A stretch of 36,716 bases of DNA, from contig JAQXLO010000010.1 in assembly GCA_029012165.1 (NCBI GenBank), positions 1-36,716 on the forward strand. Direction: 5' to 3'. The translations under genes were made by a program, and so were the position numbers. Below are positions 1,586 through 7,998 of this stretch, piece after piece. The DNA is from Oscillospiraceae bacterium. Lineage in GTDB: Bacteria > Bacillota > Clostridia > Oscillospirales > Acutalibacteraceae. Each line of letters begins with the position of its first letter. The first letter of the stretch is position 1. Below the pieces are notes generated by a model. It searched no databases. It was given only the letters and a program-made list of their open reading frames with translations, and was not told where the DNA came from.

Positions 1586-2530
1586 TTATTGCTGTACATA
1601 GTCCTGCATGATCCAGTTGATACAGCCCACAACAGGCGGTACGTCCAACTTGATGAAGCAGAATTTACGAGCGGAATACTGTGCGACTTTTTCCCGGATG
1701 GCATCGAGATACTTCTTGCTCGGCAGTTTGGTGAGGATGGAGCCGGAAAGTACGACCTCGATCTCGTCGCCGTCAAACTGAAGCTGATTGGCATGAGCGA
1801 CGATCAGCCTTGCACTGCGCTCCGCCATCCTATCGAGAATCTGCATTGCCGCTTCGTCCCCGTCCTCCAGCGCTTCAAAGAAACAGTCGATCAGCGCACG
1901 GATATGATCCTCTGCGTCCTCGGACTCGAAAGCACTCACCGCAGACAGGAAATCCTCTCGGCTGTGCAGGTCGAAACGATTGAAATACATTCCGGTCATG
2001 GACGTCTCCAGGATACCGAGATAGACATCATCGTAAATCGCACGATACGCCTCGGTCGCAATCCAGTGGCCGTTGCCCATATCGCCGGAAAACTCGCTGA
2101 GCCCCGCCAACTGGAGCATTCTGCCCGTGGAGTCGATGGCGTTGCAGCAAGTGCCTGTGCCGTTGTTCAGTCCGATGGCGGCGCCGGAAATGCTGCCGGC
2201 TTTCACAACAATGAAACCGTCGTTGAAAATTTCAAAATGCTTCAATCCCTTGGCACGCAAACGTTCAAAGAGCGCATCGTGCTGGAACGGGTGATCTACG
2301 CCGGCAAGTCCCATCAGGGTAAAGCCCACATCCTCCAGCGTTTTCCCCGCTTCCCGGAGAAGCCCGGTAAGCCCCTCCCAGATAATCTGTGCCGCTTCGT
2401 CAAAAGAGCCTTCCAGATTTTCATGGTTGCTGCCCGGGGTTTTGTAGTCTGCGACAATCTCTTTGTTTTCATTGAACAGGGCGTAGTATGTTTTGGTACC
2501 GCCGCCGTCTACGCCGATATAGTAGCTCAT
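1586..2530 (-). CDS. BadF/BadG/BcrA/BcrD ATPase family kinase (N-acetylglucosamine kinase-like)
   Basis: YIGVDGGGTKTYYAL N-terminal phosphate loop, LNNGTGTCCNA, GDMGNGHWIA; start overlaps upstream stop (ATGA). Confidence 0.82.
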   Translation of the reverse strand: MSYYIGVDGGGTKTYYALFNENKEIVADYKTPGSNHENLEGSFDEAAQIIWEGLTGLLREAGKTLEDVGFTLMGLAGVDHPFQHDALFERLRAKGLKHFEIFNDGFIVVKAGSISGAAIGLNNGTGTCCNAIDSTGRMLQLAGLSEFSGDMGNGHWIATEAYRAIYDDVYLGILETSMTGMYFNRFDLHSREDFLSAVSAFESEDAEDHIRALIDCFFEALEDGDEAAMQILDRMAERSARLIVAHANQLQFDGDEIEVVLSGSILTKLPSKKYLDAIREKVAQYSARKFCFIKLDVPPVVGCINWIMQDYVQQ

Positions 2531-3786
2531 TGCTTTTCCTCCTCAAAATAATCCATGCACACTTCTTCCAGACAGAAAATGCCTCTGTGATACGGTTCAC
2601 GGTCGATCCACATTCCGTTGGTAAAATCCGGGATGGGCACAGGCATACCGCCCATGGCGGCTGACTGCTCGGAAAGGCAGGTCACCGCCATCCACGCCGC
2701 CGTATCGTAAACGTCAATGGGCGGCTGATGATGATGGACCACCGAATCCACAAAAGCCGACATCACCAGAAAGTCCATGCCGCCGTGACCGCCGTGGACA
2801 CCGTCCACCTGATATTTTTTCCACAGGGGATGCTCAAACTTTTCAATGTCCTCGGCGAAGGGATAAAACTGCGGCTCCCTGCCCTTTTCCCCCATGGTGT
2901 CCAGGAAATATTCGCCGCCATGGCTGTTCTCCTGAAAGATGCCCCGTGTCCCCTCGATCACATAGTTTCTCGAATAGGGTCTGGGCAAACTGCAATCGTG
3001 ATGCAGGGTGATGGTCTCGCCGTTGGCACACCGGATCATCGTAGTCGTCACATCGCCCTGATTAAAGGGGTACTCGGTGATATCATAGTCGGCGCCTTTC
3101 GTATCCCGAAGGTACACGTTCAGACCTCTCGACTTGCTGGTCATGGAGCAAAGCGTGAGCATACGGTTGCCCCGGTTGACGCCGATCAGTTTGCAGATGG
3201 GACCGAGCTGGTGTGTCGGGTACAGTTCCCCGTTGCGGTGCATGAAGTTGAACAGTCTGCCGTGGCGGTTCTCTCTGCCGGAGGTGATCTCCTCACGCAG
3301 GTCGTGACGATAGCCGCCCTCCAGGTGGACGACCTCGCCGAACATTCCCTGCTTGACCATATGGAACAGCGCCATCTCGTTGCGGTCGTAGCAGCAGTTT
3401 TCCAACAGCATACAAAACTTGCCGCTCTCCTCGCTGGCACGAACCATTTGCCAGCACTCCTCGATAGAGGCCGCGCCGCCGACTTCGATGGCCACGTGCT
3501 TGCCCGCACGCATGGAATCGGTCGCAATGCGTGCGTGGGTGATCCATGTGGTAAAGCAAAGGATTGCTTCGATATCCTCCCGCTTGAGCAGTTCTTTATA
3601 GTCCAGATACATCTCGGGCGCTTCGCCGGTCTTTTCTTCGACAATTTTCACGCCCTGCTGTGCACGATCCTCGTACTTGTCGCAGACCGCCGCCACACGC
3701 ACACCGGGAATATCCAAAAACTCCCGCAGATTTCCGCACCCTCGTCCGCCGAGACCGATCACGCCGAAATTGGTTTTCTTCTCCAT
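2527..3786 (-). CDS. Gfo/Idh/MocA family protein, GH109-like
   Basis: N-term Rossmann GVIGLGGRGCGNL; EVGGAASIEECW; NFMHRNGELYPTHQLGPICKLIGVNRGNRM resembles the GH109 (NAD-dependent alpha-N-acetylgalactosaminidase) signature. Confidence 0.8.
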   Translation of the reverse strand: MEKKTNFGVIGLGGRGCGNLREFLDIPGVRVAAVCDKYEDRAQQGVKIVEEKTGEAPEMYLDYKELLKREDIEAILCFTTWITHARIATDSMRAGKHVAIEVGGAASIEECWQMVRASEESGKFCMLLENCCYDRNEMALFHMVKQGMFGEVVHLEGGYRHDLREEITSGRENRHGRLFNFMHRNGELYPTHQLGPICKLIGVNRGNRMLTLCSMTSKSRGLNVYLRDTKGADYDITEYPFNQGDVTTTMIRCANGETITLHHDCSLPRPYSRNYVIEGTRGIFQENSHGGEYFLDTMGEKGREPQFYPFAEDIEKFEHPLWKKYQVDGVHGGHGGMDFLVMSAFVDSVVHHHQPPIDVYDTAAWMAVTCLSEQSAAMGGMPVPIPDFTNGMWIDREPYHRGIFCLEEVCMDYFEEEKQ

Positions 3787-3797
3787 CTAATCCTCCT

Positions 3798-4343
3798 CTA
3801 TTTCAAGCGAAACAGCTTTTTAAATCGCTTTTGCCACCTGCGCAGGTACTCGCCCACAAACAGGGTCAGGCAATAATCATATCCCACAAACGCCACTGCA
3901 CCCACGCCCAACAGCACGGGCACCGCCGCTTTGCCATACTTGTCGATTTCTTCAAACTCGATGCCCATAAAGCGGATCATGAGATAATACGCCGCCGTCA
4001 TCACCACGGAAAACAGCAAAAGCTTTGCGATCCACTCCACAGAGCGCTTACGGATATGCTTCTCCATAACGGCCTTCAGGATGGGATAATATCCGAAGAA
4101 AACCACATACAGGATTGCGGCTTCCTTCGACGGGATGACCAGCATCGCCAAAATACTGACGGCCACATAGATGCCGAACGCCCAACCCTTGCCCATTTCC
4201 AAAACAGCAAAGATCAAAAATATGCCGGCAACCGCCGGTGCGGCGATCGTCGCAGAGGGAAAGATGGCAAACAAAAACATGATTACCAGCGACAGCGCCG
4301 CCAAAATTCCGCCCAAGGCGGTTTTAGAAGCTTGTTTCATCAC
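3798..4343 (-). CDS. Uncharacterised polytopic membrane protein (start may be ATG at 4340)
   Basis: Multiple hydrophobic segments (GGILAALSLVIMFLFAIFP, FGIYVAVSILAMLVIP, LLLFSVVMTAAYYLMI); tightly follows the J-like gene. Confidence 0.75.
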   Translation of the reverse strand: MMKQASKTALGGILAALSLVIMFLFAIFPSATIAAPAVAGIFLIFAVLEMGKGWAFGIYVAVSILAMLVIPSKEAAILYVVFFGYYPILKAVMEKHIRKRSVEWIAKLLLFSVVMTAAYYLMIRFMGIEFEEIDKYGKAAVPVLLGVGAVAFVGYDYCLTLFVGEYLRRWQKRFKKLFRLK

Positions 4344-4349
4344 GATTCC

Positions 4350-4946
4350 TCAACAACAGCTGATCAGGTCGCCGCCCATGCATTCACAGCAGCAGTCGGC
4401 GCAAAGAAGTCCCGTGCACACGTCACAGGCCGATGTCCCCTGCCTGCCCGTCTGCCGTGCCGTCCGATAGCCGCCGGAGCCGGAGTTTTGGATCTGCGTA
4501 TAGGCTGCTCTGTATTCCTGATTGGAAGGATCCAGTCTGCACGCTGCGGAAAAATTGCCCGCCGCTTCTTCCAGCCAGCCCTTCCTTTGCTGTACGCAGC
4601 CTTTCAAAAAAAACCATTCCGCACTGCGACCGCTTTCCGGGATCCCGTCCAGCAGCGTCTGTGCATCATCCAGTCTGCCCTCACGCACCTTGGCACGGAT
4701 ATCCGAGAAATCCGAGGGCGGCACATAGCTGTTCCCCGTACTGTATGCGCCCTGCCCACCGCCGGAGCGGGTCAAAATGATCGCATCATATGCCCCGTCC
4801 AGCTCCTGCATTTTCTGCTTTGCGTATTCCACATTGACGCCTGCATCAATCTGCTGCTGATACCGCCTCGCCTGATAGCGGTACGCTTCACGGATCTGGT
4901 CATCCGTTGCGTTTTCGGAGACGCCGAGAACAGTGAAAGGATTCAT
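4350..4946 (-). CDS. J-domain-like protein with TPR-like middle and Cys-rich C-terminal tail; HPD motif absent
   Basis: MNPFTVLGVSENATDDQIREAYRYQARRYQQQID...KMQELDGAYDAI matches the J-domain pattern with QQQ where HPD is expected; tail CDVCTGLLCADCCCECMGGDLISCC. Confidence 0.8.
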   Translation of the reverse strand: MNPFTVLGVSENATDDQIREAYRYQARRYQQQIDAGVNVEYAKQKMQELDGAYDAIILTRSGGGQGAYSTGNSYVPPSDFSDIRAKVREGRLDDAQTLLDGIPESGRSAEWFFLKGCVQQRKGWLEEAAGNFSAACRLDPSNQEYRAAYTQIQNSGSGGYRTARQTGRQGTSACDVCTGLLCADCCCECMGGDLISCC

Positions 4947-5794
4947 TTGTCCACCTCCTGACTTTTATGGGCACCTGTCACATACAGCGCCGAGTTGTAT
5001 AGTCCGTTGAATAATACATTATATATAAGCGCCTCGTTCTGACCGAATTGCAGTCGGTCGAAGCAGCGAAGCATCTCCCCGATGTTCAGGTTCAAAAGGT
5101 ACATCCCGTATGCGGAGAAATCCGTATCGGTTTGCCGGAACTTTTCCATCAAAGGATTGAAGTTTCTGCGGCGAATATCCTTTTCGATATCGTCCACGGC
5201 GTCGATCACATAGACAAATTTGCCCAGCAGGTAAAACATATGCTGCAAATCTTCGTTCCCCGACCGCAGAGCCACCAGCCTTCGCAGGGCATCGGCCGAC
5301 GGTTCCGCCGCCGCATCCGCAGTGCAGGACAAATCCTTCTCGCAGTCTGCCTGTCGGCGCATGGCATCGGCAATGACACGCTCCGCCTGCGGCTGTGCTT
5401 TCTGCGCTTTTTTATGCATACACCAGACAGCGGGGTACAGCAGCGCAGCGCCTATCTTTCGCACGAAGCCTGCATCGTGCAGGTCGTCCAGTATTTTATA
5501 GTATGCCATCAAAACAGAGACATCGGCGCAGAAATCCAAGGTTTCATTTTTTTCGCAGGCATAGCATTTTTTGCAGGGATTATAGCAGCAGCGGGACGGG
5601 TGCATCGGTGTGCAGTCCTGCGATGCGGACAGCAGGCACAGCGCCATAAATGCGGCATCATACGTCAAAAAGAGCTGACCGAACGGTGAATACCGGCGCA
5701 GGAGCGATTTGCACAGGGAGCAATACACGCCCTTGTATACATCGTACTCCTTGAATTTCAGCTCCGGCTTATACGCTCTGACATATCCGAACAC
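4943..5794 (-). CDS. DUF5685-like protein (probable GTG start at 5794; ORF track start 5863 looks too long)
   Basis: MFGYVRAYKPELKFKEYDVYKGVYCSLCKSL; RBS GGAGG lies 6 nt before GTG; Asp-rich motifs DDLHD and DAVDDIEKD; 4-nt overlap with the J-like gene. Confidence 0.75.
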   Translation of the reverse strand: MFGYVRAYKPELKFKEYDVYKGVYCSLCKSLLRRYSPFGQLFLTYDAAFMALCLLSASQDCTPMHPSRCCYNPCKKCYACEKNETLDFCADVSVLMAYYKILDDLHDAGFVRKIGAALLYPAVWCMHKKAQKAQPQAERVIADAMRRQADCEKDLSCTADAAAEPSADALRRLVALRSGNEDLQHMFYLLGKFVYVIDAVDDIEKDIRRRNFNPLMEKFRQTDTDFSAYGMYLLNLNIGEMLRCFDRLQFGQNEALIYNVLFNGLYNSALYVTGAHKSQEVDK

Positions 5795-5875
5795 GCACAT
5801 CCTCCGTTCCGTTTGATTCGATGGAGATATTATACTATATTCTCCCCGAAAATGGATGAACACATTATGAATTTT

Positions 5876-5932
5876 TTAAGGCAATACCGCAAAATTGAGG
5901 TGTGCGCCGCAATTTGTGCGGCGTAGCCTTAA
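5876..5932. repeat. Dispersed palindromic element, copy A
   Basis: TTAAGGCAATACCGCAAAATT...AATTTGTGCGGCGTAGCCTTAA terminal inverted repeats; related half-sites at 25031, 29449 and 36620. Confidence 0.75.
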
Positions 5933-7248
5933 TGATATTTCGGAAGCCAGTCGCCGTGTGCCTCGATCAGATCATCGCAAAGGCGAACTATATCGTCAAT
6001 CGACAGCTCGGAGGAGCAATGCGGGTCGAGCATCGCCGCCTGATAGATATGTTCCTTTTTCCGTGTGACCGCCGCCTCGATGGTCAGCAGCTGGACGTTG
6101 ATCTCCGTGCGGTTCATGGCCGCCAGCTGTACCGGCAGCGCAGGCTGGGCGCAGGGCTGTACGCCTGCATGATTGACAAGACACGCCACCTCCACACAGG
6201 CTTCACGGGGCAAATTGGGAATCAGACCGCTTGTGTTCAGGACATTGCCGCCGATTTTATACGGAACATCCGTCACGATAGCCTCCATGATCCCCGACGC
6301 ATACTCCCGGGTGCGCTCGTGGGTGACATCGCCGCACAGATACTTTTCCTTGTCCTCGTTCCAGCGTCTGATCTGCTCCACACAGCGGCGGGGGTACTCG
6401 TCCAGCGGGATATTGTACCGCTCGATGAGTTCGGGATATTTGGACTTGATGAAGAAATTGTTGTATTCCGCATTATGTTCGCTCGACTCGGTGCAGTAGA
6501 AGCCCAGTCTGCGGATATATTCGTAACGCACAAGATCCTTGCAGTCCTTGTCGTTCTCTAACTTTTCAATCGCACGGCGGCGGATCTCGGGGTACAGATC
6601 TGTGCCGTCGGCATTGCGCACTTCCAGCAGCCAGCCCATATGGTTGATGCCGGCGATACGCTCGAAAATCGGCTCTTGAAATTCAATGCCCAGATCCTTT
6701 AAAAGATGGCGGGAGCAGACCTGTACGCTGTGGCAAAGACCGACTGTATTCACGCCGGTATAGCGCTGCATATAGCCCGAGAGCATCGCCATGGGATTGG
6801 TGTAGTTGAGGAACAGCGCATCCGGGCAGACTTCCTGCATATCCTCGGCAAAATCATGCAGCACGGGAATGGTACGCAGAGCACGGAAAATACCGCCGAT
6901 GCCTGTGGTGTCGGCAATGGTCTGGCGAAGACCGTACTTTTTCGGCACCTCAAAGTCGATGATGGTGCAGGGGTCATACAGCCCGACCTGAATCGCATTG
7001 ACGACAAAATCCGCACCCTTCAGCGCCGCTTTGCGGTTTTCCACACCGAGATACGCATGGACAACCGCACGGTTTTCGTTGATATTTTTATTGAGTGTGT
7101 TGACCATCAGCTCCGACTGTTCCAGCCGTTCCGGGTCAATATCGTACAGGGCGATCTCACATTCCCGCAGCGCAGGCACACACAGGACATCGCCGATCAC
7201 ATTTTTGGCAAATACGGTGCTTCCCGCACCCATAAAAGTCAGCTTCAT
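5929..7248 (-). CDS. GH4 family glycosidase (alpha-glucosidase/alpha-galactosidase, MelA-like)
   Basis: MKLTFMGAGSTVFAKNVIGDVL, DTTGIGGIFRALRTIPV, NYTNPMAMLSGYMQR, GLCHSVQ, GINHMGWLLEV. Confidence 0.88.
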   Translation of the reverse strand: MKLTFMGAGSTVFAKNVIGDVLCVPALRECEIALYDIDPERLEQSELMVNTLNKNINENRAVVHAYLGVENRKAALKGADFVVNAIQVGLYDPCTIIDFEVPKKYGLRQTIADTTGIGGIFRALRTIPVLHDFAEDMQEVCPDALFLNYTNPMAMLSGYMQRYTGVNTVGLCHSVQVCSRHLLKDLGIEFQEPIFERIAGINHMGWLLEVRNADGTDLYPEIRRRAIEKLENDKDCKDLVRYEYIRRLGFYCTESSEHNAEYNNFFIKSKYPELIERYNIPLDEYPRRCVEQIRRWNEDKEKYLCGDVTHERTREYASGIMEAIVTDVPYKIGGNVLNTSGLIPNLPREACVEVACLVNHAGVQPCAQPALPVQLAAMNRTEINVQLLTIEAAVTRKKEHIYQAAMLDPHCSSELSIDDIVRLCDDLIEAHGDWLPKYH

Positions 7249-7260
7249 ACGTTTTTACCC

Positions 7261-7998
7261 TCACATATAGAATATATTGTCTTTGTATTCCTCAAAAATT
7301 TTACGGTTGTGTTCGTCCCCGCCGTCCAGATTGGCGCTCATGAAAACGGGCGGCACAATGCCATCTGCAATCAGGCACTCCACCGCTTCGATCACAATGG
7401 AATTGATCAGCGATACACCGACAGCCGTGGAGGTCGGTCCCATGGGCTCCGCCAGTCCCGGCACGGAAATCGCCGCATCACCGGGCACGCCGCAGTTGTC
7501 GATCACGCTGTCGCACACCTCGAAAAGACGCTTGCCGCCGGGGTGACGGGACGTGACGGACTTGGAGTGCTGCAAGCTGGTGAAGCCGATGGTATACACG
7601 CCCATCTTCCGTGCCTCCAGCGCCATTTCAACGGGAACCGTGTTGCGTCCGGAATTGGAGTGGATGATCAGGCAGTCTCCGGGCTGTACGCCGTTATCCT
7701 CCAAAATGATCTTTCCCAAGCCGGGCAGTCTTTCCAGCTTGCTGGTCATGGTGACGGGGCGTGTGTTGAGCATGACGCCGGAAAACAAAATCGGGTTGAT
7801 GATCGCCAGACCGCCGGTGCGGTAGAACACTTCCTCCGCCAGCATACCGGCATGGGAGCAGCCGAAAACAAAAACGCTCCTTTTGTTTTTAATGGTTTCG
7901 GCAATCACCCGTGCACCGTGCAGAATTTCATCCTGCTGTGTGGAATAGGCGGTCTCGATGGTGTCCAAAACCTTTTGAATATACGCCTTGCTCTGCAT
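7261..7998 (-). CDS. SIS-domain (phosphosugar-binding) protein, UPF0309-like
   Basis: SVFVFGCSHAGMLAEEVFYRTGGL; CLIIHSNSGRNTVPVEMALEARKMG; PMGPTSTAVGVSLINSIVIE. Confidence 0.82.
   Translation of the reverse strand: MQSKAYIQKVLDTIETAYSTQQDEILHGARVIAETIKNKRSVFVFGCSHAGMLAEEVFYRTGGLAIINPILFSGVMLNTRPVTMTSKLERLPGLGKIILEDNGVQPGDCLIIHSNSGRNTVPVEMALEARKMGVYTIGFTSLQHSKSVTSRHPGGKRLFEVCDSVIDNCGVPGDAAISVPGLAEPMGPTSTAVGVSLINSIVIEAVECLIADGIVPPVFMSANLDGGDEHNRKIFEEYKDNIFYM

Follow-up and report, generated by a model that had tools for sequence, protein, structure and literature searches.

The closest described systems are those in which an enzyme with the class I isoprenoid-synthase fold is encoded next to, or overlapping, the polypeptide that is prenylated, namely ComQ-ComX (comQXPA), PalQ and ChrPC (PMC5331326, PMC4008528, PMC13290415). 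ComQ prenylates the peptide encoded next door, for which its second motif must be NDxxx (or GDxxx), and the acceptor of the ComQ type is a tryptophan near the C-terminus (PMC5331326). According to a 2026 review, all characterised trans-IDS-like prenyltransferases target tryptophan (PMC13290415), and isoprenylation of cysteine is described as undetected in prokaryotes in a review of ComQ (PMC5331326). Lipidated cysteines are found in lipid-anchored J proteins, namely DNAJC5 (cysteine string protein), which is defined by a palmitoylated string of cysteines following the J domain, and farnesylated Ydj1/Hsp40; their Cys-rich or C-terminal Cys region is lipidated for membrane targeting (PMC4447612, PMC8262983).

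The window analysed here, a stretch of DNA of 36,716 nucleotides, carries three minus-strand genes arranged in a comparable manner. The gene of a DUF5685 protein overlaps that of a J-like protein by 4 nt and, as in ComQ-ComX, a membrane protein is encoded downstream, in this case after a gap of 6 nt (Table 1). This layout, the assignment of the first two products as DUF5685-like and as a J-like protein without HPD, and their richness in cysteine (about 15 in DUF5685 and 12 in the J-like protein, 10 of the latter within the last 25 residues) had been proposed in a first-pass annotation and were all confirmed; the J domain is recognizable below the threshold only, with 25.8 bits against the Pfam DnaJ cut-off of 27.8. 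The TATAAT-like box that the same annotation had noted upstream of DUF5685 is not supported as a promoter: the box stands alone, scanning with the consensus gave no match with both hexamers at this site, and promoter-like matches in the region occurred at chance level. We placed the start of DUF5685 at GTG 5794, with GGAGG 6 nt away at 5801-5805 and an N-terminus that then fits the MFGY of the family, while an in-frame ATG at 5800 remains a possible alternative.

Table 1. Features of the three-gene locus in the window; residues of DUF5685 are numbered from ATG 5800
Feature	Position	Strand	Basis or remark
DUF5685 gene	4943..5794	-	Pfam PF18937, E=6e-71; predicted class I isoprenoid-synthase fold; proposed protein prenyltransferase
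First Asp motif of DUF5685, D105xxxD109	5474..5488	-	each position in 131/132 sequences
Second Asp motif of DUF5685, D200xxxD204xxxD208	5177..5203	-	132/132 sequences
C27xxC30 of DUF5685	5711..5722	-	132/132 sequences
Third invariant Cys of DUF5685, C71	about 5588-5590	-	132/132 sequences
J-like + TPR + Cys-tail gene	4350..4946	-	DnaJ 1.2e-5, TPR_2 0.0018; adjoins DUF5685 in loci read; proposed substrate/adaptor
J domain of J-like protein	4785..4940	-	no HPD in window protein; HPD kept by most orthologues elsewhere in the family
C-terminal Cys tail of J-like protein, CDVCTGLLCADCCCECMGGDLISCC	4353..4427	-	column conservation in 70 tails
Membrane protein gene	3798..4343	-	predicted ECF S-component (RibU-like) fold; likely start ATG 4340
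TATAAT-like box	5829..5834	-	sequence; promoter role not supported

The three genes form a genuine, ordered unit with deep conservation, recurring far above chance. DUF5685 was present in 44 of 60 close relatives, and in all 30 distinct loci first read (one of them cut by a contig end) the J gene lay directly downstream, followed in 28 by the membrane gene, which was absent from one short contig and from genome G054. In an even sample of the order (n = 295 genomes), 218 encoded DUF5685, 212 the full J protein and 209 both (209/218; Fisher test, p=8e-56, relatedness not corrected for). Nine genomes of this sample had DUF5685 without a J match at the cut-off used (not all were examined), and the J protein alone was found in G031, in G509, where the gene ends near a contig end, and in G430, which is 80% complete. 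The flanking DNA of more than 100 loci places the J protein gene beside DUF5685. Across the phylum, 26 of 250 genomes contained DUF5685, and the 15 with a near-full-length J match were all among those 26. Scanning named genomes with the J tail as a probe yielded 80 loci, mostly from Clostridia/Oscillospiraceae MAGs, with DUF5685 upstream wherever the contig extends far enough. We excluded one genome (L054/L179), in which DUF5685 is broken. The same gene order and overlap are seen in other members of the order and outside it. A neighbourhood conserved over many families and more than one order supports the earlier suggestions that the three genes act together and that similar trios occur in other Clostridia. 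Neither of the outcomes that would have refuted them was observed when checked: the genes are not adjacent in this genome alone, and no unrelated role already known for one of them came to light. As far as could be found, the trio is undescribed, as had been surmised: we found no paper combining this gene set, none for PF18937 and a single one naming DUF5685, in passing in the part of the text available.

Around the window trio, same-strand carbohydrate genes occupy positions 1586-3786 and 5929-7998 (GH109-like oxidoreductase, BadF/ROK-type kinase-like, GH4 and SIS-domain protein), and some of the neighbouring genes are seen again in about 16 of the 80 loci. These sugar genes, as well as uvrA/uvrB, a flavoprotein, cmk, plsC and ispH (about one-third of the 80 loci), were judged to be neighbours rather than parts of the system; most flanking genes were named by reading their sequences. 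Nothing pointed to a defence or phage role for DUF5685.

The DUF5685 protein matches PF18937 with 239 bits (cut-off 26.7) and no other Pfam family. Its AlphaFold2 model (pLDDT 94.2, pTM 0.91) confidently predicts an all-alpha class I isoprenoid-synthase fold, a result not anticipated in the first-pass annotation, which offered no mechanism. The best 50 PDB matches listed by Foldseek comprise prenyl diphosphate synthases, MoeN5, the tryptophan prenyltransferase Ord1, UbiA homologues and a terpene synthase. Their probabilities are mostly near 1 (1.00 for the best hits, which are isoprenoid synthases, and at least 0.75 throughout), their TM scores about 0.35-0.58 and their E-values 0.009 and up. 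Residues Y26, C27, C30, C71, Y197, D200, D204, D208 and N215 are invariant in 132 sequences, and the three cysteines possibly form a metal site, metal binding being inferred. At the level of sequence profiles, no significant match to known isoprenoid synthases was obtained (hhalign probability 1.6-4.9%; a true pair from the isoprenoid-synthase superfamily itself scored only 21%), and kinship with phytoene synthase or polyprenyl synthase by profile comparison was not significant. A PDB sequence search with the DUF5685 profile returned designed helical repeats and weak matches only. As in squalene/phytoene synthases (PF00494), there are two Asp motifs, which hhalign aligns in register with those of phytoene synthase, without statistical significance; unlike those enzymes, DUF5685 has three extra invariant cysteines and a different genomic context. 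Unlike ComQ, it lacks the PF00348 domain and the NDxxx pseudo second motif, its own second motif being DxxxDxxxD.

The constant element of the partner, likewise new here, is its C-terminal tail. In this tail, with the consensus CDxCxGLxCADCCCECMGGDLIxCC, hardly any variation occurs across 70 window-type sequences at the positions C, D, L, CC, E, C, GGD and CC, and column conservation revealed no conserved tryptophan; 74 of 77 proteins of the window-type set end in CC, and a Cys tail was found in all 20 further loci read, from many families. The remainder of the protein is more variable: its middle is TPR-like, and HPD, absent from the window protein, is present in 52 of the 77 orthologues and in every one of the 20 from the wider set. 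Besides J+TPR+tail, as in the window, we observed J+tail (L036, L041), TPR-like+tail without J (L044, L053), a Cys-rich tail fused to a distant DUF5685 itself (L049) and separate small Cys-tailed proteins (L173, L176, L177, L178). Because the tail moves among J-only, TPR-like and DUF5685-fused carriers, it is the tail and not the J domain that goes with DUF5685. Unlike ComX, the partner spans 120-270 aa, appears intracellular and bears a Cys tail without a conserved tryptophan, and unlike in comQXPA, no histidine kinase accompanies the trio. With DNAJC5 and Ydj1 it shares the combination of a J protein and a Cys-rich or C-terminal Cys region, including a string of cysteines whose modification is not known; it differs from them in being bacterial, in the tail being at the very C-terminus with GGD, in the added TPR and, in the window, in the loss of HPD, and no homology to them has been shown.

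The membrane protein is predicted to have an ECF S-component (RibU-like) fold (AlphaFold2 pLDDT 91; Foldseek match to TmRibU with probability 1.00 and TM 0.58-0.62). Unlike ECF S components, it falls below the family cut-offs (no Pfam family above cut-off; DUF2232, E=0.048), has no ECF module genes in its operon and is paired with a chaperone-like gene. A PDB sequence search with its profile gave no matches; an EcfT gene is present elsewhere in this genome, and at L173 a DUF2232 protein (5e-9) occupies an equivalent setting. At L002, L032-L037, L169 and L186, the third gene is replaced by one for a two-helix (two-transmembrane) zinc-ribbon protein, and at L169 dnaK is directly upstream. Moreover, the S-component-like gene persists in four genomes that have neither DUF5685 nor the J protein (G023, G037, G041 and G045; L188-L191), which indicates that the third gene is not strictly tied to the other two.

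The fused J-TPR-tail gene is missing from five loci with an intact DUF5685 (L167, L173, L176, L177 and L178, from G209, G284, G310, G216 and G113, respectively), and at each of these distant loci a polyprenyl synthase is encoded within 10 kb. It was confirmed by Pfam at L167 and L173 (PF00348; E 2.9e-49 and 2e-42) and identified by reading the sequence at the other three; PF00348 genes were seen beside DUF5685 only at distant loci. All five linked synthases carry an intact first motif and NDxNN as the second, in contrast to DD in 17 of 17 aligned polyprenyl synthases of relatives, and the ComQ-like NDxxx resides in these synthases and not in DUF5685. At L177, the synthase gene (4612-5643) is split by a frame break, which may reflect an assembly error or a decaying gene. 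The S-component-like membrane protein is also encoded at L173, L176, L177 and L178, a protein whose C-terminus resembles an HPD-less J domain at L173, L176 and L178, and two Hsp70 genes, one of them Pfam-confirmed, at L173 (2685-6498, in the cluster nearby) and L176. Also beside DUF5685, at L173:9721-10869, is a gene for a JAB/MPN-like protein with a LysM domain. The tails of the distant loci have fewer cysteines and are more hydrophobic.

The reading that we favour, while giving it slightly less than an even chance, is that DUF5685 prenylates the cysteine tail and thereby anchors the J/TPR adaptor. DUF5685 would be a divergent class I (trans-isoprenyl-synthase-fold) enzyme which, by an inferred Mg-dependent prenyl diphosphate chemistry, moves an isoprenoid chain from a prenyl diphosphate, the presumed donor, to at least one cysteine of the C-terminal tail, the presumed site of modification. 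A zinc bound by the three invariant cysteines of DUF5685 may activate the thiol of the tail, the modified tail would anchor the J/TPR protein to the cytoplasmic membrane, and the S-component-like protein would be the membrane partner of the anchored protein. Catalysis, zinc, anchoring and partnership are inferences too; what computation supports directly is the fold, the invariant Asp and Cys residues, the conservation of the tail, the linkage and co-occurrence of the genes, the isoprenoid genes at distant loci and the exchange of the tail for a hydrophobic helix. The earlier idea of a membrane-associated complex fits this scheme, although it has not been shown. By analogy, the trio would work like ComQ-ComX in gene logic, while its outcome would resemble that of Hsp40 farnesylation (PMC8262983) or of cysteine string protein (PMC4447612). 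By the tests made it does not qualify as a ComQ system, and membership of the Hsp40 or cysteine string protein families was not established.

We counted for prenylation the modelled fold with its invariant Asp motifs, the tail as the constant part of the partner, the co-occurrence in 209 of 218 genomes, and the NDxNN synthases at distant loci taken together with the NDxxx requirement of ComQ. A further observation comes from G031, which is 99% complete and lacks DUF5685: its J-TPR gene is kept, but where the Cys tail would be the protein has a strongly hydrophobic segment, GRIMRIIFIIIVIRIIFRLIFSIGG, resembling a transmembrane helix. In this single case, the swap is what one would expect if the tail anchors the protein and DUF5685 enables the anchoring. 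Weighing against prenylation are the absence of a sequence-level match to isoprenoid synthases, with Foldseek E-values of at least 0.009 and TM scores not above 0.58, the restriction of the helix swap to one genome, the loose tie of the third gene to DUF5685 and J, and the fact that known trans-IDS-like peptide prenyltransferases target tryptophan, with cysteine isoprenylation undetected in prokaryotes. In addition, the window-type operon has no polyprenyl synthase, and where this enzyme does occur, at distant loci, it might be the one that carries out the transfer, which counts against assigning this role to DUF5685.

The strongest rival, unlikely as we judge it, is a metal system, in which zinc or an iron-sulfur cluster carried by the tail is passed on to, or bound jointly with, C27xxC30...C71 of DUF5685, the fold being reused as a scaffold. 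The ten conserved tail cysteines with CxxC and CCC spacing and the invariant D, E and GGD resemble a metal site more than a lipidation signal, which speaks against prenylation, and DUF5685 adds three invariant cysteines; J proteins assist Fe-S assembly elsewhere (HscB). However, such a system has no need for the invariant Asp motifs of DUF5685 and leaves the polyprenyl synthase neighbours unexplained, the tails of distant loci lose cysteines and turn hydrophobic, and the helix swap in G031 suits an anchor. Rather improbable is the synthesis of a small isoprenoid by DUF5685, chaperoned or scaffolded by the J/TPR protein, with the S-component-like protein moving or sensing the product. This would accommodate the fold and Asp motifs, the small-molecule-binding nature of the S-component fold, the EcfT gene in this genome and the ispH gene (named by sequence reading) downstream in about 29 of 80 loci, but it leaves unexplained why the Cys tail is invariant, moves from one protein to another and is fused to DUF5685, and ispH belongs to the cmk-plsC-ispH neighbourhood that is common in Clostridia. 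Least probable is a catalytically dead DUF5685 that helps to assemble the Cys-tailed protein or acts as its receptor. Such a role is compatible with a likeness to known enzymes at the fold level only and with the non-catalytic use of the squalene/phytoene synthase fold in human NDUFAF6, but both Asp motifs are kept even in the most divergent DUF5685, which would be unusual for a dead enzyme.

Even if prenylation proves wrong, the conserved pairing of an isoprenoid-synthase fold with a Cys-tailed protein remains a system in need of explanation. Should prenylation be correct, DUF5685 would, in a more tentative extension of the proposal, be the first bacterial protein cysteine prenyltransferase, lipidating a dedicated Cys tail and widespread in Clostridia. 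Protein cysteine prenylation, described so far for eukaryotes and undetected in prokaryotes according to reviews, would then exist in bacteria, and a fold known to prenylate only tryptophan in peptides would act on protein cysteines. A Pfam family present in 218 of 295 sampled genomes of one gut-bacterial order would gain a function and the widely conserved Cys-rich tail an explanation, and Hsp70 co-chaperones would be linked to the bacterial membrane, giving bacteria their own equivalent of farnesylated Hsp40 or cysteine string protein.
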